From the NCBI RefSeq assembly GCF_963678245.1, contig NZ_OY782771.1, positions 248,001-312,000 on the forward strand: DNA of 64,000 nucleotides, given 5' to 3'. Shown in pieces: positions 9,706 to 36,016 of the stretch. The translations under genes and the position numbers were made by a program. Origin of the DNA: an uncultured Sunxiuqinia sp. GTDB taxonomy: Bacteria; Bacteroidota; Bacteroidia; Bacteroidales; Prolixibacteraceae. Position 1 is the stretch's first letter; each line of letters opens with the position of its first letter. A model generated the notes under the pieces. The model did not search any database. It was not told where the DNA came from and worked only from the letters and a program-made list of their open reading frames with translations.

Positions 9706-12700
9706 ATGGAAAAGAAAGAAATACAAAAAGCAACCGAGGCGGAGTCTTCTCTCGTACCAGCTGAAAATATCCAGGTATTACCCGTTGTAGGGATCGGAGC
9801 TTCAGCCGGAGGTTTGGAAGCATTAGAGCGTTTTTTCGTAAACATACCTTCAAACACGGGTGCTGCTTTTGTAATTATCCAACACCTCGATCCGAACCAT
9901 AAAAGTATTCTTGCCGACTTAATCAAGCGTTATACCAAAATGGAGGTCTTGCAGATTATAGACGGCGTTGAAGTAATGCCAGATACAGTTTATATCATCC
10001 CTCCGGGTTCTGATGTGAGTTTGAAAAACAATAAACTGATATTGAGTTCGCAGCCTCGTCCACGCACCTTACGGTTGCCAATTGATAGTTTTCTCAAATC
10101 GCTGGCGCACGATAAGAAAGACAGAGCCATAGGCATTATATTATCGGGGACGGGGACCGACGGCACGCTGGGAGTAAGAGCAATCAAGTCAGGAAATGGA
10201 ATTGTATTTGTGCAAACACCCGAAAATGCCAAGTACGACGGAATGCCTGTTAGTGCAATTTCCACAGGTTTGGCAGATCATATTCTGGATGCCGACAAAA
10301 TGTCGGAAAAACTACTGAACTATTTAAGCTACGTTACTGATGAAACTGGGAATATACCTATTCCTGAGGAGTATAGTAATAATATCCTAACCAATATATT
10401 TAATTTATTGAGTACAAAAACCGGTCATGATTTTTCGTACTATAAACCCAATACGATTATCCGGCGTATCGAACGTAGGATGAAAATTGCACATGTTACA
10501 AAAATTGAAGATTACATTGCTGTTCTGCAAAAAGACGCAACGGAGTTAGAAACTCTGTTTCATGATTTTTTGATTGGCGTAACAAATTTCTTCAGAGATC
10601 GTGACGCGTTCGAAAAACTTAGCAGCGAAATAATACCTGAACTATTTTCGAAAATCAAGAAAGGTGTCCCCATTCGAATCTGGATTCCCGGTTGCTCCAC
10701 CGGGGAAGAAGCTTATTCGATCGCTATTCTGTTTGAAGAATTCATGGATACACATTCCCTAAACGGTTATAAGGTACAGATTTTTGCGACCGATATTGAT
10801 AGAAACGCGCTTGATAAAGCCAGACAAGCGGTGTATCCCGAGAATATTGCTGCTGATGTCCCGGAACAGTATCTTCAAAAATATTTTACCCTCGAAGATA
10901 AAGTCTATGTCGTAAATAAGCCTTTGCGCGACATCATTGTTTTTGCCGAGCAAAGTGTTGTTAAAGATCCTCCGTTTTCAAAAGTTGATTTAGTTAGTTG
11001 TCGCAATTTGTTAATATATATGTCTAATGAATTGCAGGAGAGAGCTATTTCCACCTTTCATTATGCTCTGAACTCCAGGGGTTACTTATTTTTGGGTTCA
11101 TCAGAAACACTGGGAAAAAACAGAGATATCTTTACTACAAAAGACAAAAAATGGAAGTTATATCAAAAAAACGACGTTGTTCCTAAACGGGATTACGTGA
11201 GTGGGCTGCCTTCGTTTGCTCCTGCCGTAAAAGATAAAGGTAAAATAGAGAAAGTTAGTGCTCCGGAAGACAAAATGACCTTGAAAAGTATAACAGAGAA
11301 CAAAATTATTGAGCATTTTACTCCTGCTGCTGTCTTGGTGAACAACAAACAGGATATTCTTTTTTTTAAAGGCAAAACATCAGCCTATCTCGAGCCAGTA
11401 CAAGGAGTTGCTAATATGAATGTGGTGGAAATGGCAAAACCCGGGATTCGTGTTAAGCTACGTGTTGCATTAAGCAAAGCAATTCGCGAAAACAAAGCAG
11501 TTGTTGAGGAGAAACTTCACCTAAAAACCGATAATACTTACAAGTTTATTAATATCCATATACAGCCTGTTAAGCCTAAAAGCGAAGAGTCGAACTTGTT
11601 TTTGATTGTATTTGAAGATATTACCGAGACGGAAATGTTTTTAAGTGATGATATGCACGACTTTAGCAACAAGGATGTCAATTATATTGAAACGTTGGAG
11701 CTGGAATTGAAGCAGACAAAAGAATATCTGCAATCGGTAATCGAACAATCCGAAACAACGAACGAAGAATTAAAGGCGGCCAACGAAGAGCTGCAATCGT
11801 CGAACGAAGAGCTGCAAAGTACCAACGAAGAGTTGGAGACATCAAAAGAAGAATTACAATCAATCAACGAGGAACTCATTACGGTAAATACCGAGCATCA
11901 GAATAAAATTGCTGAACTCTCGGATTTAAATAATGATGTTAACAATCTGCTCACGAATACCGAGATCGCCACAATTTTTCTGGACGTGGATTTAAAAATA
12001 AAGAAGTTTACCCCCAAAGTAACTGAATTTATAAACTTAATTGCGGGCGACATTAACCGGCCCATTGAAGATTTTGTTACAAAATTAAATTATCCCGATT
12101 TTAAAGAAGACATAGAGCATGTTGTAAATACTTTAAACACCGTAGAGAAAGAGATTGACAGTACTCAGAAGAGTTACATTTGCCGGATGATGCCTTATCG
12201 AACACTTGATAATGTCGTAACCGGGGTCGTCATCACGTTTGTAGATGTAACCAGATTAAAAGCAGCCGAAAAGGAACTAATTCAGGCCAAAGAGCATGCT
12301 GAAGAGAATGAAATCAGGTTGATACTAGCTCAGGATTTAAACAACGCAGGAACCTGGGATTGGAATATCGAAACCAATTCATTCTATTGGTCGGATGAGT
12401 TTTTAAAGCTCTTTGGAATGTCGAAAGAAACTGAAGCCGGTTTCGATGCATGGCACAAGGTGATACACCCTGACGATCTTGAATTGGCTTCGAAAAAAAT
12501 AGAGGAAAGCTTAAAGAACAATACCGAACTAATAAGCAATTACAGAATTATTCTTCCTAATGGCGACATTCGCTGGATCAAATCCGCAGGGAGCACAATT
12601 TATGAAAACGATAAACCTAGAAGAATGATCGGCTTATGCTTCGATATTACTGATGTTAAGCAAGCTGAGGCCGATTTAATCAGTGCAAAAGATCGTATTG

Positions 12701-14238
12701 AAACAAGTGAAAAGAAATACCGACAACTTTTTCAAAACTCACCCGACTCAGTTATTGTCCACGACTTGGAAATGAATATCATTGACGTTAATGATAGAGC
12801 CACTGCGGAGTTTGGTTATTCGAGGGAGGAATTTCTTCAGAAAAAAGTGTTCGACTTGCATCCAAAAGAAGAGCTTCCCAATTCGGAAGACGTTTTGGAC
12901 ACGATGAAAAAGAAAGAATCTTTATTAGTCGAGACAAAGTTTCATAGAAAAGATGGATCGCTTTTTCTGGCCGAAGCGACACCATGTAAATACTTGCTTG
13001 AAGGAAAAGAGATTATTCAGGTTGTGATACGAAATATTACAAAACTGAAAGAAGCCGAAACCAAAATGATTCAGGCTAAAGAAAAAGCTGAGAAAAGCGA
13101 AAAGTACCTTCGTGATATTATCAACAATATTGGCGATCCCATTTTCGTAAAAGACGATAAAAGCAGGTTACTCATGGTTAATAGTGCTTTTTGTGAAATC
13201 TTCGGTATTTCAGAAGTTGACGTAATTGGAAAAACACTTGCCGAAGATGTTGCTCTGGAAGAACAAGCAGGTTTTCTAAAAATTGATAAGCAGGTTATTG
13301 CAACCGGGCAAGAGAATATAACAGAAGAATCGCTTACTGTAAGAGGAGGTGAAATGAAAACAATCTCGACCAGAAAAACTCGTTTTATTGATGCCAAAGG
13401 CAATAAATATCTTATCGGTGTAATTCGTGACATCACCAAACGGAAACAAGCTGAATTGGAGTTGACGAATGCCAAAGAACAAGCCGAGAAAAGCGAGCAA
13501 TCGCTTTTAAAAAATGAGGCACGATTAAAGGAAGTGAACGCGACCAAGGATAAATTCTTTTCAATTATAGCACACGATTTAAAAAGTCCGTTTAACTCAA
13601 TTATTGGTTTTAGCGAAATGTTGAATCGAAATGCCTTGACGTATTCGCCCGAAAAAGTTCAGAAATTGTCCGGAGTGGTTTATCAGTCATCAACACTGGC
13701 ATTCAAACTATTGGATAATTTGCTGGAATGGTCAAGATTACAATCCGGAGCAATCGAACCTGATTATGTAAAAGTTAAGCCTTCCGACTTAATTGATGAA
13801 GTTAATTTAATTAAGCAACCTATTGCCAATTCAAAAAATATTCGACTACAATCTGTAATCAACGCTGACGATTTAATATTGGCCGATAAGGAGATGGTGA
13901 AAACAGTACTTCGGAATTTAATTTCCAACGCTTTGAAATTCACCCATCCGGAAGGAATCGTGAAAATTGAAACTCAAAGCAGTGGAAATGACATGCTGTT
14001 TATGGTATCAGATACCGGTATTGGTATTGAGAGCAAACACCTCGACAAAGTGTTTGAACTCGACAACAAATTATCGGGGACTGGTACTGCCAATGAGAAA
14101 GGAACCGGGTTGGGCTTAATACTTTGTGCGGAATTTATAAAGTTGCTCCATGGCAAAATTTGGGTAGAGAGCGAATTGGGAGTTGGAAGCCGGTTTTATT
14201 TCACAATCCCTAAAACTGAACGTGCTTATGAAAAGTAA
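9706..14238 (+). CDS. CheB-CheR fusion sensor histidine kinase with several PAS domains
   Basis: The 1510-residue protein contains, in order, several domains. A CheB methylesterase domain comes first (about 25-215), with the full Ser33 (GASAGG), His60 (QHLDP) and Asp152 (GTDGT) triad. A CheR methyltransferase domain follows (about 230-490; NFFRD, PGCSTGEEAYS, VSCRNLLIYM). Next is a long coiled coil of EELQS/T-NEEL repeats (about 655-735), then four PAS-like domains (about 745-1255). A HisKA domain carries the phospho-acceptor His1290 in AHDLKSPFNSI. A HATPase ends the protein (ISNALKF, DTGIGI, GTGLGL). It has no receiver domain and no transmembrane segment, so it is probably a cytosolic sensor. 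The next gene overlaps its end, suggesting coupled translation. Confidence 0.93.
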   Translation: MEKKEIQKATEAESSLVPAENIQVLPVVGIGASAGGLEALERFFVNIPSNTGAAFVIIQHLDPNHKSILADLIKRYTKMEVLQIIDGVEVMPDTVYIIPPGSDVSLKNNKLILSSQPRPRTLRLPIDSFLKSLAHDKKDRAIGIILSGTGTDGTLGVRAIKSGNGIVFVQTPENAKYDGMPVSAISTGLADHILDADKMSEKLLNYLSYVTDETGNIPIPEEYSNNILTNIFNLLSTKTGHDFSYYKPNTIIRRIERRMKIAHVTKIEDYIAVLQKDATELETLFHDFLIGVTNFFRDRDAFEKLSSEIIPELFSKIKKGVPIRIWIPGCSTGEEAYSIAILFEEFMDTHSLNGYKVQIFATDIDRNALDKARQAVYPENIAADVPEQYLQKYFTLEDKVYVVNKPLRDIIVFAEQSVVKDPPFSKVDLVSCRNLLIYMSNELQERAISTFHYALNSRGYLFLGSSETLGKNRDIFTTKDKKWKLYQKNDVVPKRDYVSGLPSFAPAVKDKGKIEKVSAPEDKMTLKSITENKIIEHFTPAAVLVNNKQDILFFKGKTSAYLEPVQGVANMNVVEMAKPGIRVKLRVALSKAIRENKAVVEEKLHLKTDNTYKFINIHIQPVKPKSEESNLFLIVFEDITETEMFLSDDMHDFSNKDVNYIETLELELKQTKEYLQSVIEQSETTNEELKAANEELQSSNEELQSTNEELETSKEELQSINEELITVNTEHQNKIAELSDLNNDVNNLLTNTEIATIFLDVDLKIKKFTPKVTEFINLIAGDINRPIEDFVTKLNYPDFKEDIEHVVNTLNTVEKEIDSTQKSYICRMMPYRTLDNVVTGVVITFVDVTRLKAAEKELIQAKEHAEENEIRLILAQDLNNAGTWDWNIETNSFYWSDEFLKLFGMSKETEAGFDAWHKVIHPDDLELASKKIEESLKNNTELISNYRIILPNGDIRWIKSAGSTIYENDKPRRMIGLCFDITDVKQAEADLISAKDRIETSEKKYRQLFQNSPDSVIVHDLEMNIIDVNDRATAEFGYSREEFLQKKVFDLHPKEELPNSEDVLDTMKKKESLLVETKFHRKDGSLFLAEATPCKYLLEGKEIIQVVIRNITKLKEAETKMIQAKEKAEKSEKYLRDIINNIGDPIFVKDDKSRLLMVNSAFCEIFGISEVDVIGKTLAEDVALEEQAGFLKIDKQVIATGQENITEESLTVRGGEMKTISTRKTRFIDAKGNKYLIGVIRDITKRKQAELELTNAKEQAEKSEQSLLKNEARLKEVNATKDKFFSIIAHDLKSPFNSIIGFSEMLNRNALTYSPEKVQKLSGVVYQSSTLAFKLLDNLLEWSRLQSGAIEPDYVKVKPSDLIDEVNLIKQPIANSKNIRLQSVINADDLILADKEMVKTVLRNLISNALKFTHPEGIVKIETQSSGNDMLFMVSDTGIGIESKHLDKVFELDNKLSGTGTANEKGTGLGLILCAEFIKLLHGKIWVESELGVGSRFYFTIPKTERAYEK

Positions 14239-20512: not shown

Positions 20513-21229
20513 TTAGATAAACTTCTCGCGTTTTTGCAGATTAAACAGCCCATATAGGACAAACACCAATGCTCCAACGACCAGGAAAATTCGGTTCTTC
20601 AAAGCAATACTCTCCCACATTACCTCATTCATATTGCGAGGAACATTGAATGGATTCAGGAATACATTCCAAAATGTTTGTTCCAGAGCCTCGGCAAAAA
20701 CAAGAAAGATAACTCCAAAAATAACCATCACAACCGCTGTCCCATTACCATTTTTAATGATGGTAGAAAACATAAAAGCCATGCTCCCTAAAAAGAAAAC
20801 CGGAAACATCAACTGCGAGCTCATCTCCAATAAATCAACCCGGGTTAAGAAGATAGAACTAATACCGGCAAAACCAAGCAACAAGAAAAAAACTAACACA
20901 AACACCAGGAATAGCCGCACCAGCCAAACCTTATAACGGTAGTCCGGAATTCCAAAGAGGATTTCCAGAATCCCGGCATCTAAATCATTCTGGATGCCAA
21001 ATGTCATGGGATAAAAAATAAGCAGAATGGCCGGAAAGGTAAGTGCACCGTAAACAAATTCTTCGTCAGGTAATTCACCATTCCACACAGCCATGATGGC
21101 AATAAATACATAAAATGCGAAAGCTGCCAGTAAGAACCAGATAAAGCGGCCACCAAAAATGATCCGGAAATTGTATTGAATCATCTTACCAATCAGGTTC
21201 AGCGTATTTTTAAGTTTGAGTGTGTTCAT
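20513..21229 (-). CDS. ABC-2-type transporter permease
   Basis: The 238-residue protein has about six hydrophobic helices. Its layout is that of ABC-2 permeases: an N-terminal amphipathic segment, a first helix near residues 27-48, a pair near 65-85, helices near 105-175, and a last helix near 212-230 with a charged end. It is the last gene of the seven-gene export cluster. It lies 138 bases downstream of the gene encoding the RND-ABC fusion, with a long inverted repeat in the gap. It most likely pairs with the ABC ATPase domain fused to that RND protein. Confidence 0.75.
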   Translation of the reverse strand: MNTLKLKNTLNLIGKMIQYNFRIIFGGRFIWFLLAAFAFYVFIAIMAVWNGELPDEEFVYGALTFPAILLIFYPMTFGIQNDLDAGILEILFGIPDYRYKVWLVRLFLVFVLVFFLLLGFAGISSIFLTRVDLLEMSSQLMFPVFFLGSMAFMFSTIIKNGNGTAVVMVIFGVIFLVFAEALEQTFWNVFLNPFNVPRNMNEVMWESIALKNRIFLVVGALVFVLYGLFNLQKREKFI

Positions 21230-21367: not shown

Positions 21368-24300
21368 TTACTTCAAGTCTTTAATCAAGCACAAATAAGC
21401 ATCTTCCAGTACCGGCTTGGCCTCTACGGCATCATCGGCTGGTTTCTCATGGCTCAATAGGCGTACCCTTATATTTTCGCCTACCCGCATGTGGTGTGTT
21501 ACCATTTGTTTGTTAGGCATCTTGTCAAATTCAGCAGCCGGTACATCGTATTGCCAAACCAGATTATCGGCCAAGTTCACCATTTCTATTGGCGTACCAT
21601 GATATTTTACTTGCCCCCGGTTAATTACGGCAACCTGATTACACGAGCTTGAAATATCCTCAATAATATGGGTTGAAAAAATAACAATCCGCTCACGGCT
21701 CAACTCCACCAACAGGTTTCGGAAACGGATACGCTCACGCGGGTCTAATCCAGCAGTTGGTTCATCCACCACTAAAATTTTCGGAAGATGAAGCAGGATT
21801 TGCGCAATTCCAATTCGTTGTTTCATACCACCGGAGAACGAGCCAATCTTATCGCCTCGCTTTTCCCACATATGAACCGCTTTCAGCACATATTCGATTC
21901 GTTCATTTCGCTGTTTGGCATCGGTTAGTCCTTTCAGCAGAGCCTGATAATCCAGAAACTCCTGGGCAGGCATATTTTCATAGGTTCCAAACTCTTGTGG
22001 CAAATAGCCAATCAATCCCTGTAGCTCTTCGCGCTTTTCTTGCGTATCAATGCCATTGATCCAGACCTTGCCGTAACTTTGCTCAAAAATTCCGCAAATA
22101 ATCCGCATCATGGTTGATTTACCGGCTCCATTGGGGCCAAGTAGTCCAAACATTCCTGTTCCAATTTCCAGCGAAACACCATTGAGCGCCTTAAAAGGAA
22201 CCCGCCGTTTTCCAATCACCGGAATTCGTTTCACCAAACGAAAGACTGCCCGTCGCAGCGTACCAAAACGGCCGGTGATCCGCTCAATATTTATTTTTTC
22301 TTCGTAAAGCCGTTTGGCGGTAACTGAAATTAGCAAGACCAAATACCAAAATGCTCCGAATGCGATTACCAGACCAATAACGTCCGTTTTTATCCAGAGA
22401 ATAACCAATCCAACTAAAGGCATCAACCAATATAGAAACAGCTTACCTAATTTATTAATCCGCTTGAAAACAGTTCGGTTTGTTTCCTGGTGCCGATGGT
22501 TTAAATAAATGGTAATCGGTTCCCAGATCTGGTTCAGGTACAAGTAAATGATTATCATCATAAAGCTAATCCAGAAAGCGGCATCTAAGTAGAAAAAGGT
22601 AAAATAGATCATAAAACCCAACAGTGGCAATTGCCAGATCAGCTGATCAAACTCCCGAATGTTGCGGAATTCTTTTTCCAATCCGGCTCGTCGGCGGATG
22701 TTGAGGCCACCGGCCCACTCGCGGGCAAAACGGCTCGGGCGGTCGTATATTTTTACCAGATTTTGAATGACGATATGGACTTTTTCGTCCGGTGCGATGA
22801 GTTGAGCACTTGCCTTCTTTAAACTATTCAGCACAAACCATGTGGTTCCGGGAATTAAAACAACCGCCAAAACGGTATCAACCAGTTGCCAGGTTAAGGA
22901 ATCCACGTCATAGTATATCAGGAATAGAGCACCTGTTATGGCAATCAGTTGCAAGGCTTTCAGTTTCCAATCCAACTGATGAAACCACTCTAAGGCACTT
23001 TCAAGTCCCGAATAAAAAGTTGGAATGAAAATCAGGGTCAGCACGGTGCTTAATGCCAAACCGCCAATCACAATGATGGCAAATGGTGCGCCAATCACAC
23101 TCACGTATTCGGCTTGTCCCAATGCAAGTGGCACCATAGCAACAATGGTGGTAATGGCTGTAATCAGGATTGGGCGAACCCGCGACAATCCGGCTGTCAT
23201 TAACGCCCGGGAACGTCGATATCCTCGCTTGCGCAAGATATTGCTGTAATCAATCAGAATGATCCCGTTGTTAACCACCACACCCAATAAGATCAGGAAG
23301 CCGATCATCGTATTGGCATTAAAAAGACTGTTGCCGGTAATAATCAAAGCCAATAGCGAACCGATTGCTGCAAGCGGAATGGAGAACAACAACACAAAAG
23401 GCGTTGCAAAAGATTCGAATACCGATGCCAAAATCATGAAAATTAAAATGATGGCAGCCAAGATTAAAAACTTAAATTCGCCAAGATCGTCCTCTTCATG
23501 GATCACTTCAGCGGCCACCCCTGACGGGAAGTTGTAATTGGCAACCAGCGCATCGATTTCGTAGCGATAAGACTCCAGCAAGTCCTTCGATTGCTGAGCT
23601 TCATTATTCAGGCTATAGGTAATTTCGATTTGCTTTTCCTGGTTTACCCGATTGATTCCTGCCAACCCCCGAGCGTAAACCAACTGAGTAAACTCCTGCA
23701 GATCGTGCAAGCCTCCCGAGGCATCACTTACCTGCAAAACTTTCAAGTCATCCATGGTACGCATATCTTCTTCCAGTGGGTCTTCTTCGCCTTGCTTGAT
23801 AATTATTTCGTATTCATCTACTCCCTGATTAAACTGTACGCCGGTAGAAATTTCGCCTGAAAAGGAATTCAGTTCACTAGCCACCTGTCCCATGCTAATA
23901 TTGTATTCCGTCATTAACAGCGGATCAAATAGCATATGAACTTCCGGTCGGTTGTCTGATACATTCAGTCGCACGCGGTTAATAAAATCCAGGTCATCCA
24001 GAAAATATTCAATGTCTTCGGCCACCGTTTGCATCATGACGAAATCCTGACCTTTCAATACAATTTTTTCTTCTTCGGAACCAATTCCCAACATCCGTTG
24101 AAAATTGCCCATCATGTTCCGTCCGCCACTAAAGCCACCGCCTCCACCGCCACTTGACTGGCTTTGTTCGAAGGAGATTTCCGCTGAACCGATATTTTTT
24201 GTTAGATCATTTACGGCTGACTTTATTTCGGCAAATGATCGGCCATCAACCTCTTCATAATCTTCAACCAGCGTTAACGAAACAACTGCTTTTTCCTCTT

Positions 24301-26083
24301 CAATGGTACTCACCACATCCAATTTCTCGTTAACTTCTGCCAGTTTTTCTTCAATCTTAGTTACTGTTTCATCTGTTACTTCAAGACTCGAGCCCGATGG
24401 CATGGTCACATACAATTGAATTTGGTCTTCTTCAACTTCTTGCAGAGAGCTAACACTAATGGCCAAACTGACAAAAATGGTAACAAAGAAGATAAGCACA
24501 GCACCCAAAACAGTACTTGTGGGGTAGCGCATGCACGATTTCAGCAGCAATAAGTATACCTGCACCATCCGGTTGTTGGTGGTCACCTTTTCAAAGGAGA
24601 TCTCTTTGCCGCGTTTTCTTTTCAGAATATAGTGGACAGCCATTGGTACCAATAACAATGCTACAACCAACGAAACCACCAAGGTTGAAATGATGGAAAT
24701 ACCGACATTTTTTCCCAGCATTTCAATCATGAAATTGGTTGAAAAAACAAAGGGCAAGAACACCGTAATCGTCGTTAAGGTTGCTGCCAGGATAGAACGC
24801 CAAACTTCGGATGTCCCTTGCGTGACCGCCGAATCCGGATCTACTCCTTTTCCGGCGAGTCGATAAATATTTTCAAGTACCACCACACTATTGTCGAGCA
24901 GCATGCCTATGGCGAGTGCCATACCAACCAGTGTCAGGCTGTTCAGGGTAATATCGTAGGAATAAAACAGGTTGAAAGCAGTGAATACTGAAATCGGAAT
25001 TGCCAGCGCAATAAATGCGACAATACGCACATTTCGCAAAAACATCCACAGTACAAACACGGCCATCAATCCACCAACCAAAGCCAGGTTGATGATTTGG
25101 TCGATATTGTTTTCCATGGTTTCAGCGGAGTTATCCTGAATGAACAACTCCACATCCTTACGGGCCAGCTTCTCATTAAGTTTTTCAACCAGTTCCTGGG
25201 TTTTATGCGATAGCTCAATCTGGTTGACCTGCGAATCGTTGATCAAACGAATGGTAATTGCATCTTTCCCATTCACCCGGCTGTAGCTTGTTTCTTCTTT
25301 TACTCCAAAACGAACTTTTGCGATATCTTTCAGCAAGATTGGTCCATCAGACACCACTAAGTTTTCCAGCTCACTAACCCGATCGTACTCGGCAGTTACA
25401 TGCACAAAGTAAAGTTTATCGCTTTCTTTCAGGTTGCCAACATAAGTGCGTGATTGTGAGTTTTGAGAAAGCAACGAACGAACCTGTGCCGGTGTAATGT
25501 TGTATGCTTCACAGGCATCCATATCCAGAATAACCTCGATGGATTTTTCACGACCACCAAACACATTGACACCCGCAATGCCATCCAGATTCTCCAGATC
25601 AGGAGCTATTTCCTGATCAACAATATTGCGTACCCGATCGACTCCACCACTTCCGCGAGCCTGCAATTCCATAAACTGGTTGTTCATTTGTGAGAGGTCA
25701 ACACGATTTACGCTAACACGCACACCGTCAGGCAGGTCTACTTGTATCTCGTTTATCTTTTCCTGTAGCTTGAGATAGGCAAAACTGAAATCGACATCTT
25801 TCTGGTAATAAACAACGACCGTCCCCATTCGGGAGGTGATATTCGACTCTAGCGACTCGATACCTTCCAAGGTGCCAACAGCACCTTCGATAGGAATGAC
25901 GACTTCATTTTCAAGATATTCGGGATCAGCCTCCTGGTTAGATACCGCCTGAACGAACAAGAAGGGAAGCTCCGCATTGGGCAATAATTCAACACCCAAC
26001 TGTTTATAAGACACGTAGCCCAGAAGGGTCAGTCCAATAAACAACATGCTGATCAGGGTCTTTCTATCGATTATAAATTTCAT
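21368..26083 (-). CDS. RND efflux permease fused to a multi-helix membrane segment and an ABC ATPase
   Basis: The 1571-residue protein starts as a HAE1-type RND permease (about residues 1-1030). It has the N-terminal anchor helix, the LGVELLPNAELP porter entry and a TM4 segment GMLLDNSVVV. A glycine-rich loop (about 650) and the C-terminal GFLILLGVVVNNGIILID helix follow. From about 1040 to 1290 there are roughly six further hydrophobic helices. An ABC nucleotide-binding domain then follows: Walker A GPNGAGKS with Lys1322, signature FSGGMKQR at about 1416-1423, Walker B ILVVDEPTAGLDP with Asp1440 and Glu1441, and H-loop STHIIED. The ATPase resembles the one at 35123-36016. The start is ATG, 14 bases after the preceding RND gene. 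No stop or frameshift interrupts the fusion. Confidence 0.9.
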   Translation of the reverse strand: MKFIIDRKTLISMLFIGLTLLGYVSYKQLGVELLPNAELPFLFVQAVSNQEADPEYLENEVVIPIEGAVGTLEGIESLESNITSRMGTVVVYYQKDVDFSFAYLKLQEKINEIQVDLPDGVRVSVNRVDLSQMNNQFMELQARGSGGVDRVRNIVDQEIAPDLENLDGIAGVNVFGGREKSIEVILDMDACEAYNITPAQVRSLLSQNSQSRTYVGNLKESDKLYFVHVTAEYDRVSELENLVVSDGPILLKDIAKVRFGVKEETSYSRVNGKDAITIRLINDSQVNQIELSHKTQELVEKLNEKLARKDVELFIQDNSAETMENNIDQIINLALVGGLMAVFVLWMFLRNVRIVAFIALAIPISVFTAFNLFYSYDITLNSLTLVGMALAIGMLLDNSVVVLENIYRLAGKGVDPDSAVTQGTSEVWRSILAATLTTITVFLPFVFSTNFMIEMLGKNVGISIISTLVVSLVVALLLVPMAVHYILKRKRGKEISFEKVTTNNRMVQVYLLLLKSCMRYPTSTVLGAVLIFFVTIFVSLAISVSSLQEVEEDQIQLYVTMPSGSSLEVTDETVTKIEEKLAEVNEKLDVVSTIEEEKAVVSLTLVEDYEEVDGRSFAEIKSAVNDLTKNIGSAEISFEQSQSSGGGGGGFSGGRNMMGNFQRMLGIGSEEEKIVLKGQDFVMMQTVAEDIEYFLDDLDFINRVRLNVSDNRPEVHMLFDPLLMTEYNISMGQVASELNSFSGEISTGVQFNQGVDEYEIIIKQGEEDPLEEDMRTMDDLKVLQVSDASGGLHDLQEFTQLVYARGLAGINRVNQEKQIEITYSLNNEAQQSKDLLESYRYEIDALVANYNFPSGVAAEVIHEEDDLGEFKFLILAAIILIFMILASVFESFATPFVLLFSIPLAAIGSLLALIITGNSLFNANTMIGFLILLGVVVNNGIILIDYSNILRKRGYRRSRALMTAGLSRVRPILITAITTIVAMVPLALGQAEYVSVIGAPFAIIVIGGLALSTVLTLIFIPTFYSGLESALEWFHQLDWKLKALQLIAITGALFLIYYDVDSLTWQLVDTVLAVVLIPGTTWFVLNSLKKASAQLIAPDEKVHIVIQNLVKIYDRPSRFAREWAGGLNIRRRAGLEKEFRNIREFDQLIWQLPLLGFMIYFTFFYLDAAFWISFMMIIIYLYLNQIWEPITIYLNHRHQETNRTVFKRINKLGKLFLYWLMPLVGLVILWIKTDVIGLVIAFGAFWYLVLLISVTAKRLYEEKINIERITGRFGTLRRAVFRLVKRIPVIGKRRVPFKALNGVSLEIGTGMFGLLGPNGAGKSTMMRIICGIFEQSYGKVWINGIDTQEKREELQGLIGYLPQEFGTYENMPAQEFLDYQALLKGLTDAKQRNERIEYVLKAVHMWEKRGDKIGSFSGGMKQRIGIAQILLHLPKILVVDEPTAGLDPRERIRFRNLLVELSRERIVIFSTHIIEDISSSCNQVAVINRGQVKYHGTPIEMVNLADNLVWQYDVPAAEFDKMPNKQMVTHHMRVGENIRVRLLSHEKPADDAVEAKPVLEDAYLCLIKDLK

Positions 26084-26097
26084 CCTTATCTCCTCAA

Positions 26098-29000
26098 TTA
26101 TCCAATTGGTTTTGGCTCTTCTTTTAATCGGTCTCTGATGGCTTCAACGGCTTCGTACATACATGGAATAACCACCAAAGTCAATATGGTTGACGTAACC
26201 AATCCTCCAATAACCGCCAAAGCCATTGGTGAACGAAGCGAAGCACTTTCGCCAATTCCTAAAGTCAATGGAAATAAAGCCAGAATGGTTGTTAAACTGG
26301 TCATGATGATCGGGCGAATCCGTTGTTGGCCGGCTTGCAAAATGGCCTCCATACGTTGCATACCTTCATTTCGAAGTTGCAAAATACGGTCAACAAAAAT
26401 GATGGAGTCGTTTACCGCAATCCCGACCAGCATAATGATACCAATGTAAGCCATAATGTTAAGTGTTTTTCCTAACAGGAAGAACACCAAAACAGAACCA
26501 ACCACAGCCAGCGGTATAGTCAATAAAATGGTGAACGGATGAAGCAGCGATTCAAATTGCGAAGCTAAAACCATATACACCAAAACGATGGATAATATCA
26601 AGGCAAAACTCAGGCTCGACATGGATTCCTGTCGCTTTTCTTCTTCACCACTGATGTTTACCTTGTAATCCGGAGGAATACTCAACGGCTTGATGGCTTC
26701 TCGAATTTTGCTGACCGCTTGATCCAAGGGGACATCTTTTTCCAGTTGAGCAGATATTTTTCCAATCCGACTTTGGTTACGGCGATACACTTCTTTAGGC
26801 GATTGTCCGATTCTGACCTCAGCCAGCTCACTTACCATAAATTCCTGATTGCCACTGGTGATTGTCAATTCTTCAATTTGCGACAAGCCTTTATCCGGTA
26901 GCTTAATGCTAATGTTCTGCATTTCTCCCTGACGCTCAACCTGCCCCGCATCTTTCCCTTCTAACTGTACCTGAATTTGCGACACGATGTTACTAACACT
27001 CAGGTTATACATTCCGGCGCGTAGCCGATCTACAACGATCTCAACTTCAGGAGAACCTTCTTCCATTGATGATTCAAAATTGTACATTCCCGGCAGATCC
27101 TGAACCATGCTCTTAACTTCCGCGGTTAACGATTCAATCACTTGCAGGTCTTCGCCTTCTATTTCAATTACCACGGGAGCTTCATCGGTTCCCATAATGC
27201 TTTTCAAAGCAGTCTCATCTTGTTGATAGCTTATTTCCATGCCAGGAATCTCACCAATCGCATGACTGATTTTTTGGATTGCTGCTGATGAAGCTATGCT
27301 ACTTTCAGGCTTTAAAATGAGTTTAATAGTGGCTGTGTTTTCACCTTCAAAAATTGCTGAAGCCGAACTGCTAATGCCACTTGATGGGCCAATATGACTA
27401 TAAACGGTTTCCAGATTTTCTCCCAACAACCCGGCAACCACTTGTTCCAGATTTTCAACGGCAGCAGTTGTTCGCTCGATCCGGGTTCCTTCCTGCATTC
27501 GAATTTCCATACTAAATTCCCGTGTCTCCGTTTTCGGCATAAATTCAGTCCCAATAAATGGAAGCAATAACGCTGATGCACCGACCAAGGCAAGAGCAAA
27601 CAGAATAACCAGCCACTTCACTTTTAATACTTTCGCTAAAAAACGACCATAGCCTTTTACTTGTACCGAACGATTCTTAACTGTCCGCTTCTTTTTCTTA
27701 TAAAACAGATTAAACAACATGGGAATAACCAAAATGGCGACGGCTAAGGAAGACACCAACGAAAAGGCTACTGTCCATGCTTGATCTTTAAACAATTCGC
27801 CGGAAGCGCCGTGTAGATAAACAATGGGCAAAAATACGATGATGGTGGTAATAGTTGATGCCGTGATGGCTCCGCTAACTTGCGAGGTTCCGGTGATTGC
27901 CGCTTCGCGCACCGACATCCCCGACTCATGATTTCGGAATATGTTTTCCATCACCACAATGGCATTATCAACCAACATACCGGCTCCAAGAGCCAGTCCT
28001 CCTAAGGTCATAATATTCAAAGTCAAGCCATTAAAATACATTAGGTTGAAGGTGGCAATAATGGAAATTGGGATGGCAATGCTAATAATTAACGTGCTTC
28101 CTACGCGACGCAAGAAAATAAACAAGACGATAACTGCCAACAAAATACCAAGCAAGGCAGATTCCTCCACTTCGTTAATCGCATCGCTGATAAAACTTCC
28201 CTGGTTGGTTACCATCTGCAACTGGTAGCCGGGCAACGCTTTTTCAACATCAACAATGGCTTTGTTGATTTCATCAACCGCTTTTACGGTATTGAACTTT
28301 GTTTCTTTATAAATTGAAAGCCCCAAACAACGCTTTCCGTTTAACCTGACGATGTTGTCGGGTTCCTTATTTTGAAAACTAACTTGGGCTACTTCACGCA
28401 AATAGATCGGGGCATAGGCTGCCTCCGTATTATCAGCCATCACCTGCTTGTAGCCGACGATGACGTTTTCGAAATCTTCAATATCGGTTAACAAGCTTAT
28501 GCCTTTCACCACATAACGTAATCCCATTTCCTCGATGCTTCCGCCTGAGATACTCTGGTTGAAACTTCCAATCCGATTGCTGATTTCATCCATTGTCAGT
28601 CCAAAGGCATCCAAAAGGTACTCATTGGTTTCAATCAATACTTCGACATCTTCATCACCCGAAACTTCAACTTCGGCAACCCCTTCCAGGCGGATCAACT
28701 CGTTGCGGATATAGTTTTCAGCCACCTTGCGCAGCTCGTTCATATCGTCAATGGATGGATTGCTCAATCCCAAAAGCATTACCGGCGATGTGTTTGGATC
28801 GTGCTGCGTTATATTGATCTCATCTATTTCCCGGTTTTGGGCAAATGAAGTCACTGCTTTCTGTAAATCCAGAAAAGCATCGTCCATATACTTGTTCCAG
28901 GCATATTCAACTGTAATTTGGGCACTGCCAACTTTTGACACCGAGGAAACCTGAACGACATCTGATTGCCGGATAGCCAGAGCTTCAAGATTCTCCACAA

Positions 29001-29190
29001 ACTGGGACTCCATTTCTTCCGGCGGACGCTCACCCGACTCGAGCTCAACAAAGAGGCGGGGGTTGTTCAAATCCGGAAACAGATCGACACCCAGCTTATC
29101 GTACGAGATGTACCCGAGCAGAACGACTCCAAGTACCATCATCAGAATAGTAACCGGGTAGTTGACCGAAAATTCGCTTAACTTCTTCAC
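26098..29190 (-). CDS. RND (HAE1-type) efflux permease
   Basis: The 1030-residue length is normal for the family. It has the N-terminal helix, LGVDLFPDLNNP and the TM4 segment GMLVDNAIVVMENIF. It also has two porter halves and a C-terminal GIIMLVGIAVNDSIIFVDRI segment. It probably works as an inner-membrane proton-driven exporter with the membrane fusion and TolC-like proteins encoded just upstream. The start codon is GTG (29190-29188). It is 12 bases behind the membrane fusion gene and 14 bases ahead of a second, fused RND gene; the two may form a heteromeric RND pair. Confidence 0.92.
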   Translation of the reverse strand: MKKLSEFSVNYPVTILMMVLGVVLLGYISYDKLGVDLFPDLNNPRLFVELESGERPPEEMESQFVENLEALAIRQSDVVQVSSVSKVGSAQITVEYAWNKYMDDAFLDLQKAVTSFAQNREIDEINITQHDPNTSPVMLLGLSNPSIDDMNELRKVAENYIRNELIRLEGVAEVEVSGDEDVEVLIETNEYLLDAFGLTMDEISNRIGSFNQSISGGSIEEMGLRYVVKGISLLTDIEDFENVIVGYKQVMADNTEAAYAPIYLREVAQVSFQNKEPDNIVRLNGKRCLGLSIYKETKFNTVKAVDEINKAIVDVEKALPGYQLQMVTNQGSFISDAINEVEESALLGILLAVIVLFIFLRRVGSTLIISIAIPISIIATFNLMYFNGLTLNIMTLGGLALGAGMLVDNAIVVMENIFRNHESGMSVREAAITGTSQVSGAITASTITTIIVFLPIVYLHGASGELFKDQAWTVAFSLVSSLAVAILVIPMLFNLFYKKKKRTVKNRSVQVKGYGRFLAKVLKVKWLVILFALALVGASALLLPFIGTEFMPKTETREFSMEIRMQEGTRIERTTAAVENLEQVVAGLLGENLETVYSHIGPSSGISSSASAIFEGENTATIKLILKPESSIASSAAIQKISHAIGEIPGMEISYQQDETALKSIMGTDEAPVVIEIEGEDLQVIESLTAEVKSMVQDLPGMYNFESSMEEGSPEVEIVVDRLRAGMYNLSVSNIVSQIQVQLEGKDAGQVERQGEMQNISIKLPDKGLSQIEELTITSGNQEFMVSELAEVRIGQSPKEVYRRNQSRIGKISAQLEKDVPLDQAVSKIREAIKPLSIPPDYKVNISGEEEKRQESMSSLSFALILSIVLVYMVLASQFESLLHPFTILLTIPLAVVGSVLVFFLLGKTLNIMAYIGIIMLVGIAVNDSIIFVDRILQLRNEGMQRMEAILQAGQQRIRPIIMTSLTTILALFPLTLGIGESASLRSPMALAVIGGLVTSTILTLVVIPCMYEAVEAIRDRLKEEPKPIG

Positions 29191-30287: not shown

Positions 30288-31772
30288 TTAGTTATTACTT
30301 TTCTTCATTAATTCCTCAGGAACAATGCCTTGACTTTTTTCAAAATCGTAAAGGGTTTGAATTTTCAGATTCAACAGCTCTATTTTATAATCGATTAAAG
30401 ATTGCGCGTAAGCCATCTTTTTCTCCGACAGCTGTGTTTGATAGAGGTTCAAATCCATGCTGGTGAGATCGCCGTTGGCATAGCGTTCCAGATTAATTTC
30501 ATAGGTTAACTGAGCATTCTTTTCGTTTTGCTTGGCAATGTCAATCTGTGTTTTTAAGTTTTGAAGCGAACGGTAAACCTGGCGAATATCAATCACGATT
30601 TGTATTTCTTGATTCTCAAGATTGAGTTCACGTGTTTGGAGAACTGCTTCCTGTGCTTTAATTCTAGACTTTTTCTCACCCCAGTCAAACAGTGGGACAT
30701 TGAATGAAAGGGACACTCGGGGATTGTTCGTCGGATTGTTGTAAACATTACCAACAACACGGTCTTCACCGATAATTCCAACAGAAAGGTTCATCTCTCC
30801 CTTAAACTCATTCATTGCTTTTGTTTGAATCAAATCAAACTGCGAGTTTTCAATATCAATCTCTCGCTGGCGCAGTTCCATCCGGGAAGCCAACCCATAA
30901 TCGATTGCCTTTTTTAGATCAACATCAACAGCATTCGCGTCTACATTGGTCATGACCGAAATTTCTTCGAAAATATCCATGCCGATGTATTGTTTGAATT
31001 GATCTTTATAATTCTCCAAACTCACCCGTTTGTTTTGCAAACCCGACTCGGCTGATGCATAGTTCAGTTCTGCCTGGTAAAGCTCTTCTCTCGCTGCCAA
31101 TCCGGCTTCAACTTTGTTCGTGGTTATCTCGTAGCTTTTCTTGGTGTTTTCCATTTCATCCTTGGCAATGGTTAAGCTCATTTGTGCCATATACACATTG
31201 TAAAAATACTGGGTAACCAGTTTCTCCAGATTCAGTTTTTGCATGGCGTAACTCAGGTTCGAGTTTTCTAAATCGAGCTGAAGTTCTTTGAGTTGAAGTT
31301 TTAGCCGATTGTAAGTAAATAGAGGTTGGGTGAGGCTGAGGTATAAATTGTTGGTGAATGCCCGATCCTCCCGATTGGTTACATCGTTGATATTTTTTTG
31401 CCAACCAAACCGATTTACCAATTGCACGGTTCCATCAGTCCATAAAACAGGTTGCGAAACGGTAAAGGTTCCCGATGAACCAAATGATTCGTTGGTGTAC
31501 CAAGTTGATGAGAAATCGTCGAATGAACGGGTTCGACTAAAATCAACCGGGTTTAAGCTGAGGGTAAACTGCGATTTTAGGGCTGCTTTTTGGGCATTGA
31601 GCGATTCTTGCGAACGTTCCAAATTTAATAGCGAAATACGGATGTCCGGGCTATTCTGCGAAGCAATATCCAGCGCATTCTCCAAGCTCAAAAGCTGCTG
31701 CCCAAAAGCCAGTGCTCCGGGAAAAGCTGTCAGCAGAACAAGAATCTTAAGTTTTGTAAAAATGAGTTTCAT
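30288..31772 (-). CDS. TolC-family outer membrane efflux protein
   Basis: The frame is open to a TTG at 31781, but the first ATG at 31772 gives a clean signal peptide ending near ALAFGQ, so I choose it (494 residues). Two OEP repeats with long coiled helices are visible: LSLENALDIASQNSPDI near the start, and ENALDI-like and QTRELNLENQEIQIVIDIRQVY segments further on. This fits a trimeric outer-membrane channel-tunnel. It lies 9 bases after the ABC permease/peptidase-like gene and just before the adaptor gene. Confidence 0.9.
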   Translation of the reverse strand: MKLIFTKLKILVLLTAFPGALAFGQQLLSLENALDIASQNSPDIRISLLNLERSQESLNAQKAALKSQFTLSLNPVDFSRTRSFDDFSSTWYTNESFGSSGTFTVSQPVLWTDGTVQLVNRFGWQKNINDVTNREDRAFTNNLYLSLTQPLFTYNRLKLQLKELQLDLENSNLSYAMQKLNLEKLVTQYFYNVYMAQMSLTIAKDEMENTKKSYEITTNKVEAGLAAREELYQAELNYASAESGLQNKRVSLENYKDQFKQYIGMDIFEEISVMTNVDANAVDVDLKKAIDYGLASRMELRQREIDIENSQFDLIQTKAMNEFKGEMNLSVGIIGEDRVVGNVYNNPTNNPRVSLSFNVPLFDWGEKKSRIKAQEAVLQTRELNLENQEIQIVIDIRQVYRSLQNLKTQIDIAKQNEKNAQLTYEINLERYANGDLTSMDLNLYQTQLSEKKMAYAQSLIDYKIELLNLKIQTLYDFEKSQGIVPEELMKKSNN

Positions 31773-31781
31773 AGGTATCAA

Positions 31782-34700
31782 TTATTGTTTTATCAATTTA
31801 ACGGCATCGGCAACTACCATTCGCGATTCCGACTGGTTTGTCATTTCAATTACTGCAGTATCCGGTGAAAAATAGAACCCTCCAAGATGGTTCCATCCAT
31901 CTTCAGCACTTTTTAATTGGACTAAGGCATCCTCATCACCATCATCGTGATGCACAATGAAATGGTATTCGCCATCATTATTTCTACGACGACCATCTTC
32001 TTTATACACGAAGGCATAAACATCGTAATAGCCGGCATCCTTGATGGGCACATTCCAAGTGGCTATTTTATCTCCTTCGCCTGATCGGATATAATATGCT
32101 GAGCGAATGTAGGCTCCGTAAAAATCAGAGTTCGTTGTCAATGTCCAGGTGCGCGGTGGTCGCCAACCTGAAAAGCCTTCATACTTGGTCGAGCTTTCTG
32201 TTTCCTGAATTAATAAACGACGAAGCAAGCTGGTTTCGGCTTCGCCTTTCACTTCAAACCCGGGATCTTCGTTATCCAAAATGATCTCGTTGTCTTCGGC
32301 AATTCGAACAGGGATATCAACCTCGGCAATGCCTTCGTAAGGAACGGCCTTTTTATCTTCTTCGATATTATCTAACTGAAGTCGTATTTCTGAAGGAATA
32401 TTTTTAGATGTCAGTGTGTTGATGCTCAGTCCACGTGGAGTTCCACTTAGTAAGTAACTAACCTGCTTGGTTTGATTCCCATCCAGGTGAATCAATTTAC
32501 TGATGGTTTCAGGAGATCCTCCCCTTCCGCCAAAACGGCCACCTCCTCCTAATCGAAAATCTGCAGAAATAATTCCTTCCACGTCCTCCGTATTGCTCAC
32601 TTTAAATTTCACCATTGTTTTGAGCTGATCTCCATCTAGCACATTGACTGCATCAACATGTCCAATCAAAAAAGCCGGTAATTTTGTGCTGCTAAACCAA
32701 TCTTCCATATATGGAATCAGGTCAATTCCAAATTCATTCTGAATAGCATCATTAAATTCATCAATGGTCGAAGCCGAAAATTTAACCTGATTGAGGTAGC
32801 TGTATAGAAAATCTTCAAAAGCTTCTTCCTTAGCTTTGGTTTTGATAATTGAAAACAGTGCCTTGCCCTTTAGTTGAATGACATTGTCGACAATTAGTTT
32901 CTGCTCCGGATTATTTAAAATCTCTTCAAAACTTTGCGATAACAAAGCGAGGTTTCCCTGTTCATCTTCCGACATGCCTTGCAGGTCGCGCATCCAGCCC
33001 ATGCGAGGACTATTGCTTGCCTGCTTTTTGTAGGCCTCAAAAACACGATCGGTAACCGGCCATCGTTCCGAGCTGATGTAAAAAGCATAGTTGTAAAATA
33101 GAGGAAAGGCATACAGCGCATTATCGGTCTCTTCAATTTCAAATTCTCCCTGTGAACGGTTGATGTCGGGTCTTCCTTGTTCTTGGGTAAAAGTGGCCAG
33201 GAAGTTTTGCAATATGCGTATCTTTTTCTCCTGAGGCGTTAGGTTTTCATCATTGCCGCGTCCCCAGCGACGACGCTGATTCATCCGTCCGTTAAAATCA
33301 GCTTCGCTCACAAGCAAACCCTTTTCAGGAAATAAAATCATTTCCGGTTGAATCTGCTCACGAGTACCGGTTAAAACCCGCTCATAGGAGTAAAATTGAA
33401 TAGGGACTTCAACCAGCGACAATCGCTCAAACGGATAGTACAAATCGACATCACGCTCAAAATCCTGAAGGACTTCTGTAATAACACTCGGAATGGTGTC
33501 CTTTATTTCCTCAAAAAAATCAGAAAAATAATCGTGCCCTTTGCGATAGTAGATATTGAAATCGAGTCCATCAATTTCCTGATTGATTTTTTCATAATTA
33601 CCGATAGCTATTGAAATTTGTGACTGCGCGTGAGAATTGGTAAACACAAATTTGTGATTATCTTCCTCGACAACTCCTTGTGAAATAGCTGTTAGTCCGT
33701 TATGGGTGGTCACTTCTAATCGATAATCGCTAAACTGTCGGGCAACCCATTGCTTGTTTTCTTTACCAAAACCAACTCCGGGAATTGGATACCAGTTGGC
33801 TTCCCGGGTCAACAAAACATAGTTCGGAGTGATAAAAGCATACCGCTTATCAATCTGATACATCATGTTTCGATAAGCCTGTTGTCTGGTTTCATCGTCA
33901 ATATCTAGAAAACAGGCTGCTTCGTTAATTTTACCCTGATAGGTAAAAATCAGCTCAAGCTTTTCGCCCGGAGCAACCTGAAAATCTTTAAGTTCAACCA
34001 AACTCAAATTACGCTCAAAAGCTTGATTCTTACCTCCAATTGTAATTTGCTTCAACTCCAATCCCGGATTCAGGCTAAAAAGTACTTTTGAATTTACTTC
34101 ATTGGCCTCATTAACGGCTTTCAGTTTCGTTGTGCAGGTAATTGTTTGCCCGGTATGTTCCAATTGAATATTGTACGAAGAAATTGATAATTGTTTTAAA
34201 TCCAGATACTCATCATTCAAGGAAATCATTTCTTTCCGCAAACCCTGATTTTTTGTAAATGACCCAACATGGACGCTGCCAAGGAGAATGCCTCCCGCCA
34301 GAGCCAATGTTCCAAAACCAAACGAGAAAATCCGCATAACTTCGGAATGGGACAACCGTTTTAAAAGCAGGATGGTATAAAAGATAAAAGCGACGCCAAA
34401 GCTAAAATACATTCCCCGATGAACCAGAATGGCTGTGAGATTCCCAAATCCAACAAAATCAGAAAAAGTTAATGGGATGTTGAATGCCATGTAGTCGAAC
34501 AAGTAATAAAACTTATCCTGAAGGTAAAACAAAGAGATTGCGACATAGCCTAACAAAACAACAAAAGTCACTGCTTGGTTGCGAATCAAGGACATGATCA
34601 GAAACGAGAGCCCCATAATAAATACCAGTGTGGGAATACTAATCACCAGAAAGTAATACAAATACGCCGTTCCGTTAACCCCGGTATTTGTCGTAATCAG

Positions 34701-35105
34701 GTTGAAAAGCAATGCATTTGCTAAAATAATCAGGTTCAACACAATAAACACGACCAGGTTTCCCATCGTTTTTCCAATCACATATTCGCCGTTGGTCATT
34801 GCACGCATGTAAATTACCTCTGTCGTATCCAACTTTTTATCACGCTTCAGAAAGTCAGAAGCCAGAAAGATGGCAATAACGGCCTGCACGACATTTAGAA
34901 ACAACAGGTTTACGTAGGGAATAACTGACGGTAACCCTTTTATGCTCCATTCACCAGCTCCACCGTTCGATTCGATCAATACGCCAAAGTTGAAGAATGT
35001 AATGAAAAGTATTGCGAGAATAGCAAAAATACGGAAGAACCAGCTTCGAAGCAGTGTCTTCGTTTCGTAACGGGCAATTGATCGTATATTGTGAATTGAT
35101 ATCAT
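31782..35105 (-). CDS. ABC-2 permease fused to an M1-peptidase-like ectodomain and a golvesin-like C-terminal domain
   Basis: The 1107-residue protein begins with an ABC-2 membrane domain of about six to seven helices (residues about 20-285; SDFLKRDKKLDTTEVIYMRA is the usual cytosolic loop). A large extracytoplasmic part follows. It resembles the M1 aminopeptidase-like domain often fused to Bacteroidota ABC permeases (about 300-830), but I find no HExxH zinc motif, so it is probably not a peptidase. The last ~130 residues (AYYIRSGEGDKIATWNVPI, AGYYDVYAFVY, VVADAVKLI) look like a golvesin/xanthan-lyase-type carbohydrate-binding domain. It is the second gene of the export cluster and pairs with the ATPase 17 bases upstream. 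Confidence 0.82.
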   Translation of the reverse strand: MISIHNIRSIARYETKTLLRSWFFRIFAILAILFITFFNFGVLIESNGGAGEWSIKGLPSVIPYVNLLFLNVVQAVIAIFLASDFLKRDKKLDTTEVIYMRAMTNGEYVIGKTMGNLVVFIVLNLIILANALLFNLITTNTGVNGTAYLYYFLVISIPTLVFIMGLSFLIMSLIRNQAVTFVVLLGYVAISLFYLQDKFYYLFDYMAFNIPLTFSDFVGFGNLTAILVHRGMYFSFGVAFIFYTILLLKRLSHSEVMRIFSFGFGTLALAGGILLGSVHVGSFTKNQGLRKEMISLNDEYLDLKQLSISSYNIQLEHTGQTITCTTKLKAVNEANEVNSKVLFSLNPGLELKQITIGGKNQAFERNLSLVELKDFQVAPGEKLELIFTYQGKINEAACFLDIDDETRQQAYRNMMYQIDKRYAFITPNYVLLTREANWYPIPGVGFGKENKQWVARQFSDYRLEVTTHNGLTAISQGVVEEDNHKFVFTNSHAQSQISIAIGNYEKINQEIDGLDFNIYYRKGHDYFSDFFEEIKDTIPSVITEVLQDFERDVDLYYPFERLSLVEVPIQFYSYERVLTGTREQIQPEMILFPEKGLLVSEADFNGRMNQRRRWGRGNDENLTPQEKKIRILQNFLATFTQEQGRPDINRSQGEFEIEETDNALYAFPLFYNYAFYISSERWPVTDRVFEAYKKQASNSPRMGWMRDLQGMSEDEQGNLALLSQSFEEILNNPEQKLIVDNVIQLKGKALFSIIKTKAKEEAFEDFLYSYLNQVKFSASTIDEFNDAIQNEFGIDLIPYMEDWFSSTKLPAFLIGHVDAVNVLDGDQLKTMVKFKVSNTEDVEGIISADFRLGGGGRFGGRGGSPETISKLIHLDGNQTKQVSYLLSGTPRGLSINTLTSKNIPSEIRLQLDNIEEDKKAVPYEGIAEVDIPVRIAEDNEIILDNEDPGFEVKGEAETSLLRRLLIQETESSTKYEGFSGWRPPRTWTLTTNSDFYGAYIRSAYYIRSGEGDKIATWNVPIKDAGYYDVYAFVYKEDGRRRNNDGEYHFIVHHDDGDEDALVQLKSAEDGWNHLGGFYFSPDTAVIEMTNQSESRMVVADAVKLIKQ

Positions 35106-35122: not shown

Positions 35123-36016
35123 TTAAACGGCAGTCCATTGGTTCAGGCGGCTTTCCATAAAATACACATAGGCATGCTCTAAGTTGGGTTCAATGTTGTG
35201 TCCGTCGTAGCCGTTTATTTCTTGGGCGACCACCTGAATCTCCCATCCTTCGCTTGTAGGGACATTCGATATCACCGGGTATTTTTCATTGATTTCCTGA
35301 TATTCCGACTCCGTTGCTTTTATCAACCAGACTTTCCCTTCGGCCTGTGCAACCAAATCGACGGGCGAACCGCTGTAGGCTAATTCCCCTTGGTTCAACA
35401 AAGCCATGTTTTTACACGTGCTTGAAATATCGCCAACAATATGAGTCGAAAGGATGATGATGACATCATTAGTTGAAATGCTCGAAAGTAAATTTCGGAA
35501 CCGGATTCGTTCTTCCGGATCCAGACCAGTGGTGGGTTCATCAACAACAATAATTTGCGGGTTATTAATCAATGCCTGCGCAATGCCTAATCGACGCTTC
35601 ATTCCTCCCGAAAGCCGATTCGCTTGCCGATCTCGTGCTTCAAAAAGACCAACTTCCTCTAGCATTTTATCCACTGCATCAGCCCGAAGCTTGCTTTTTT
35701 TTATTCCGGCTAAGCGAGCGGCATAATCGAGGAATTCGTACGTTTTTAGTTGTGAGAAAAATCGAAAATCCTGTGGTAGGTATCCCAGCATTTTACGAAT
35801 CTCTTTTCGATTTTTAACCAAATCATATTCATTAATAGTTACTTTCCCTTCACTGGGGTTCATTAAAGTAACCAAAATGCGCATTAAACTGGATTTTCCG
35901 GCTCCGTTAGGACCCAGTAAACCAAACATACCATTCTCAATTTCAAGCTGAATATTGTTGAGAGCACGATTACCATTTGGGTAAATCTTGCTTAATTGGT
36001 CAATCGAAATTTTCAC
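35123..36016 (-). CDS. ABC transporter ATP-binding protein
   Basis: The 297-residue ATPase has Walker A GPNGAGKSS, Q-loop GYLPQDF, signature LSGGMKRR, Walker B IIVVDEPTTGLDP and the H-loop STHIVGD. A ~70-residue C-terminal extension follows, with no membrane segment. The start codon is GTG at 36016-36014. It is the first gene of the minus-strand export cluster and closely resembles the ATPase domain fused to the RND protein (both share GMFGLLGPNGAGKS and RIRFRNLL). Confidence 0.93.
   Translation of the reverse strand: MKISIDQLSKIYPNGNRALNNIQLEIENGMFGLLGPNGAGKSSLMRILVTLMNPSEGKVTINEYDLVKNRKEIRKMLGYLPQDFRFFSQLKTYEFLDYAARLAGIKKSKLRADAVDKMLEEVGLFEARDRQANRLSGGMKRRLGIAQALINNPQIIVVDEPTTGLDPEERIRFRNLLSSISTNDVIIILSTHIVGDISSTCKNMALLNQGELAYSGSPVDLVAQAEGKVWLIKATESEYQEINEKYPVISNVPTSEGWEIQVVAQEINGYDGHNIEPNLEHAYVYFMESRLNQWTAV

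Follow-up and report, generated by a model that had tools for sequence, protein, structure and literature searches.

In the window (the whole 64,000-nucleotide stretch of DNA analyzed here, from a Sunxiuqinia-like member of the Prolixibacteraceae with an assembly of 4.87 Mb in 11 contigs), a complete RND permease, six further predicted membrane helices and a complete ABC ATPase are encoded as one polypeptide. RND and ABC transporters count as distinct superfamilies that draw on different energy sources; should the two form one obligate machine here, it would be the first such case known to us. The fusion is genuine, neither a product of chance nor an assembly accident: one RND and one ABC part are welded into a single chain, which is kept with six fixed partner genes across many Bacteroidales. 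That the locus as a whole builds one trans-envelope export machine, an RND tripartite pump joined to an ABC-2 exporter, is a proposal for which we judge the chances to be evenly balanced.

The fusion protein

21368..26083, minus strand: RND-ABC fusion protein (FUS), 1571 aa, open frame with an ATG start, ACR_tran and ABC_tran domains
23003..26083, minus strand: RND permease part (RND2), residues 1-1027 of FUS, ACR_tran 527 bits
22313..23002, minus strand: six-helix middle segment, about residues 1028-1257 (last helix to 1261), from an AlphaFold2 model
21368..22312, minus strand: ABC ATPase part (NBD2), about residues 1258-1571 of FUS, ABC_tran and motifs

Read on the minus strand, the FUS frame is free of stops across all 1571 codons. 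Pfam analysis places ACR_tran (PF00873) on residues 2-1025 with 527.4 bits, above the cut-off of 28, and covers profile positions 3-1018 of 1021. This is a full-length RND permease match, and it bears out the complete permease that the initial annotation had placed in the first ~1030 residues. The RND part scores 448.7 bits on the NCBIfam model RND_permease_2 (NF033617), below the cut-off of 1250. ABC_tran (PF00005) follows on residues 1300-1444 (98.4 bits, above the cut-off of 25), with the whole profile covered (1-137 of 137). The ATPase motifs are Walker A at 1316-1323 (K1322), the signature SFSGG at 1415-1419, Walker B with D1440/E1441, and H1472. The four motifs (Walker A, signature, Walker B, H-loop) are present in 19/19 fused ATPases, and the key catalytic residues, including K1322, D1440 and E1441, are invariant in 80/80 aligned full-length fusions. 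The ATPase has all its catalytic motifs, with Lys1322, Asp1440 and Glu1441 at the positions first assigned to them.

The joint and its distribution

RND permease, middle segment and ATPase share one frame in 171 of 175 loci, counted over four sets that overlap in genomes (24/25, 77/80, 40/40 and 30/30; the 25- and 30-locus sets span ~1.5 kb on each side). Three of the four exceptions (L022, L057, L059) begin at a contig end, and the fourth (L111) belongs to a draft genome with several broken frames in the operon. Locus L112, scored as fused, is damaged in the same way: several cassette genes are frameshifted in both drafts, and these frameshifts are likely sequencing errors. Besides the window's own fusion, 79 distinct fusions of at least 1480 aa are found.

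A search with the RND part (E 1e-80, up to three candidates scored per genome) yields matches in 65 of 247 genomes of the class. Matches of about 630 bits or more occur in three genomes only (the window's own, G167 and G262), in frames of 1576-1640 aa, and scores then drop from ~630 bits (52-62% identity) to 345 bits (27%). Given this gap, no unfused orthologue of the RND part is seen among the 247 class genomes. It had been considered that the two halves might always be separate genes in relatives, which is not the case. That the joint is an artefact, through a lost stop codon or an assembly joint, has a negligible probability and is rejected, since the same joint recurs in the 171 of 175 loci from many assemblies and no unfused counterpart appears among the 247 class genomes.

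The middle segment (query residues 1028-1300) is matched in 38 of 61 relatives. Within the family, 34 of 37 genomes have it, the window's own among them, as against 4 of 24 genomes in the remaining families of the order. When the class is sampled evenly, 3 of 295 genomes match, again counting the window's own, while a profile of the 238-aa permease encoded next to the fusion finds 5 of 296 phylum genomes, one by a doubtful 68-residue match. A scan of named genomes returned 186 relatives. Titles among the best 80 of these 186 include Bacteroides, Parabacteroides, Tannerella, Carboxylicivirga, Mangrovibacterium and Prolixibacter; Sunxiuqinia indica is the nearest named relative, with 97% across the last 544 residues at the C-terminus. 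Drafts titled Chitinophaga, Chlorobiota, KSB1 and Deferribacteres (L042, L074, L080, L097) also hold the fusion; either these drafts are mislabelled or a transfer took place.

The seven-gene cassette

The other six genes of the cassette lie on both sides of FUS:

35123..36016, minus strand: ABC1, separate ABC ATPase, 297 aa, ABC_tran 111 bits, sister clade of the fused ATPase
31782..35105, minus strand: ABC2M1, 1107 aa, with an ABC-2-like membrane region, an M1-peptidase-like region (Pfam matches of both below cut-off) and a golvesin C-terminal domain
30288..31781, minus strand: TolC-like outer-membrane channel, OEP (PF02321) 166 bits
29203..30261, minus strand: periplasmic adaptor of the RND_mfp type, TIGR01730 205.5 bits against a cut-off of 94.9, HlyD_D23
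26098..29190, minus strand: RND1, second RND permease, unfused, 1030 aa, ACR_tran 705 bits, sister clade of RND2
20513..21229, minus strand: 238-aa ABC-2-like (type V) permease by predicted model, likely membrane partner

On one strand, the order is ABC1, ABC2M1, TolC, adaptor, RND1, fusion and 238-aa permease, with median intergenic gaps of 10-31 bases. All seven genes are present in the same order and on the same strand in 38 of 40 fetched stretches, including one (L133) in which RND1 is split over two frames. Of the two incomplete cassettes, L181 is cut by a contig end and the genome of L119 has the upstream genes on other contigs. The 238-aa permease gene follows the fusion in all 40. A complete cassette also occurs in G751 (L172), which comes from another class of the phylum.

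Presence of the fusion and of ABC2M1 is linked. Among 344 genomes of the order, the middle-segment profile (up to eight candidates scored per genome) is matched in 45 and ABC2M1 is found in 46; 41 genomes have both. Each of the five genomes with ABC2M1 alone has a contig that stops short of the fusion gene or within it, and the four fusion-only genomes are listed as 61-96% complete. The three same-family genomes that are devoid of the fusion are also devoid of ABC2M1. Extra ABC2M1 copies lie outside the cassette in G500, G598, G414, G610 and G512.

The catalytic residues of ABC1 are invariant in 39/39 sequences; in that of L130 the Walker A pattern is missed and the lysine is kept. Six Bacteroides-type loci (L085, L092, L094, L096, L108, L109) have a second adaptor, and five of the six also a further RND, a few kb downstream of the cassette; L108 ends in the adaptor. 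Elsewhere in the window are two very long ORFs, at 55689-63944 (2751 aa, minus strand) and 9706-14238 (1510 aa, plus strand).

The six-helix segment and the ABC-2-like partners

The AlphaFold2 model of the middle segment (pLDDT 89, pTM 0.63) contains six helices that are taken as membrane helices: 1039-1059, 1063-1092, 1151-1165, 1169-1201, 1204-1233 and 1236-1261. Residues 1262-1300 seem to belong already to the beginning of the ATPase. The initial annotation had likewise estimated about six extra helices, while their extent, which it had given as about 1040-1290, is slightly shorter in the model. No confident Pfam match was found for the segment, nor any profile similarity to the two ABC-2 domains of the operon. 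The Foldseek and VIA lists provide no ABC-2 fold match in the PDB, a result that a diverged ABC membrane half could also give.

In the segment (22313-23002), helices 2 and 3 are joined by a loop with a strongly conserved NLVKIYDR..RF.REW, upstream of the real ATPase start, which resembles the pattern I.I.NL.K.Y of an ABC ATPase's first strand. Four fusions are of unusual length, 1623-1633 aa in L175 and L176 (G167, G545) and 1509-1532 aa in L177 and L178 (G404, G592), with the middle segment interrupted or partly matched.

The predicted model of the 238-aa protein aligns with NosY and ABCG2, while Foldseek on this model gives no match at E 0.001 and the protein has no Pfam family at the same threshold. 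Among 47 relatives, the commonest weak Pfam match is Acyl_transf_3 (9/47, best E 3.4e-4), and ABC2_membrane_2 and ABC2_membrane_3 are each matched weakly in 1/47. Judged from the model, the 238-aa protein is a separate membrane half of ABC-2 fold encoded together with the ATPase. ABC2M1 matches Golvesin_C above cut-off, with ABC2_membrane_2 (26.0 against 27.2) and Peptidase_M1 (20.1 against 27.7) both below. The HExxH motif is absent from the M1-like region in 38 of 39 sequences, and none stands at a conserved place. Compared as profiles, the 238-aa protein and ABC2M1, as the two ABC-2 halves, show no significant similarity. The membrane half of an ABC exporter is the role that had been suggested for the six helices; this suggestion is not supported, for no search returned an ABC-2 relative of them, and on the predicted model this role would fit the 238-aa protein instead.

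Two pairs of paralogues

As far as the trees and sequence comparisons can tell, both pairs, that of the RND parts and that of the ATPases, consist of sister paralogues. A quick IQ-TREE of 49 permeases (13 RND1, 13 RND2, 23 others) groups RND1 and RND2 each in one clade (100) and jointly on one side of a branch with an SH-aLRT of 97. In a tree of 49 ATPase sequences (19 fused, 19 ABC1, 11 others from the window's own genome), the fused ATPases and ABC1 each form one clade (98, 96), jointly supported by an SH-aLRT of 96. The trees cover 13 and 19 of the 39 cassettes (the window's included), with SH-aLRT support and no bootstrap; since the outgroup branches are long, very long in the ATPase tree, their deep parts are weak. 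Of the stretches compared from the window's own genome, ABC1 comes closest to the fused ATPase, at 43% and 236 bits, ahead of the runner-up at 156 bits. The two RND genes are adjacent in 38/38 complete cassettes. Paired subunits would be expected to leave such a pattern, with two parallel pairs of paralogues inside a single fixed operon.

A mirror-tree test was performed on 38 operons, using partial correlations. The largest value is that of RND1-RND2 (0.49). The 238-aa permease correlates with the two ABC2M1 parts at 0.23 and 0.26, the ABC2M1 periplasmic part with the fused ATPase at 0.30 and with RND1 at 0.29, and the adaptor with RND2 at 0.30; ABC1-NBD2 reaches 0.14. The ATPase-permease pairs are low (NBD2-perm 0.16, ABC1-TMD1 0.09, ABC1-perm 0.04, NBD2-TMD1 -0.09). 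This evidence is weak, and since other pairs score as high as those relied on, the test leaves the architecture unsettled.

A proposed machine and its alternatives

The most economical machine would combine an RND heterotrimer with an ABC-2 exporter that has two ATPases, one of them supplied by the fused RND subunit. A mixed trimer, like that of MdtB/MdtC, would be formed by RND1 together with RND2 and would dock onto TolC through the adaptor. The RND C-terminus is cytoplasmic and the number of added helices is even (six), so that the fused ATPase would lie in the cytoplasm, where it may form one ATPase pair with ABC1. Above this pair would lie two ABC-2 halves, one being the 238-aa protein and the other the N-terminal region of ABC2M1, while the six helices would act as a membrane tether keeping the ABC exporter beside the RND trimer. 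With ATP, the substrate would be carried through the inner membrane or extracted from it, and the RND pump would draw on the ion gradient to hand it to TolC. As a speculation, a 2:1 RND1:fusion trimer would give exactly one fused ATPase per ABC1. A bolder reading, to which we give somewhat less than an even chance, is a two-engine efflux machine: an ABC-2 exporter built from both ATPases would be permanently tethered to the RND heterotrimer through the membrane segment, for which no relatives were detected, with ATP and the ion gradient driving consecutive steps of one path that leads from the cytoplasm or inner membrane to the outside.

An unlikely alternative is that the operon and the outer-membrane exit serve two distinct homodimeric ABC exporters, one made of ABC1 and ABC2M1 and one of the fused ATPase and the 238-aa permease, in which case the fusion would tether only the second of them to the RND trimer. 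Such a pairing follows the gene order, and both ATPases retain their catalytic residues, so that neither depends on the other. Some ABC2M1-like genes, moreover, lie in loci with no RND neighbor in the stretch read (L245, L246). Against this, the sister-paralogue ATPases are kept together in all 38 complete cassettes, and it is ABC2M1, not ABC1, with which the permease co-varies; this suits mixed membrane halves, a weak argument. It is very improbable that the six helices represent an ABC membrane half that has diverged strongly, which would make the fusion a self-contained ABC half-exporter on an RND protein. Six helices directly preceding an ATPase is the order of many ABC half-transporters, but the profile, Pfam and PDB fold searches found no relative, and two better membrane halves, the 238-aa protein and ABC2M1, are encoded alongside.

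The proton relay of the RND parts bears on a further possibility, which we hold to be improbable: the fused ATPase would gate or energize the RND trimer directly via the six helices, replacing part of the relay. The relay sites of AcrB are D407, D408, K940, R971 and T978. The fused RND has D397, R968 and T975 in 80/80 at the sites of D407, R971 and T978, with N398 at the D408 site in 78/80 and N938 at the K940 site in 80/80; from the alignment, its relay appears only partly AcrB-like. These two asparagines favor direct gating, as does a middle segment unlike any ABC-2 half tested. However, the unfused RND1 displays the same changes, so they are not tied to the ATPase: in a set of 95 gathered by similarity, which includes some RNDs from outside the cassette, N stands at the D408 site in 91 (D in 3) and at the K940 site in 90 (K in 3). 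The transport partner expected of the ATPase, an ABC-2-like permease gene, moreover follows the fusion in 40/40 stretches. Since both sites are mostly N in both RNDs, proton drive is a proposal only; since the HME-type ZneA is likewise devoid of D408 and K940 equivalents in the alignment, N at these sites decides neither way.

Meaning and comparison with known systems

Searches of an open-access library turned up no description of an RND-ABC fusion, nor do passages of a large review of tripartite pumps (PMC8277102) mention one. If the parts work together, the cassette would be a natural dual-energy pump. It would provide a direct way to ask how an ATP-driven inner-membrane step passes its substrate to an RND/TolC conduit, and would add an unrecognized pump type to studies of drug tolerance in gut bacteria. 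Mutants of RND and ABC genes, which may or may not include genes of the cassette, already show phenotypes in gut bacteria (passages of PMC12669032).

Among NCBIfam ABC models, GldA (TIGR03522) scores best for the fused ATPase, with 181.6 bits, far below its curated cut-off of 402.6; ABC1 reaches 192.5 on this model, just behind drrA (193.2). MacAB-TolC and other ABC tripartite pumps resemble the cassette in having an ABC exporter, an adaptor and a TolC-like channel in one operon. In contrast, none of the seven proteins contains a MacB/FtsX-type permease domain at E 0.001 in Pfam, and RND permeases, which are not part of MacAB, are present. The likeness to ABC-2/type V exporters (NosDFY, PmtCD, ABCG2, ABCG5/G8) lies in the 238-aa model, which aligns with NosY and ABCG2, and in the ABC motifs of both ATPases. 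Here, however, the fused ATPase is attached to an RND C-terminus, and the titles of the matched ABC-2/type V structures make no mention of an RND joint.

On the RND side, the cassette resembles MdtABC-TolC of E. coli, a HAE1 RND pump in which a single adaptor likewise accompanies a pair of neighboring, paralogous RND genes. By sequence, no PDB entry is closer to RND1 or to RND2 than MdtB (9lyq_B; E 1.6e-67 for RND2). MdtB and MdtC are plain RND permeases, whereas one cassette RND carries six extra helices and an ABC ATPase, and a second ATPase as well as two ABC-2-like membrane parts are encoded in the cassette. A passage of the review cited above (PMC8277102) names MdtBC as a heterotrimer. 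The parts of the cassette belong to known superfamilies (RND, ABC ATPase, ABC-2), and we regard the cassette as a variant of the tripartite efflux pump.
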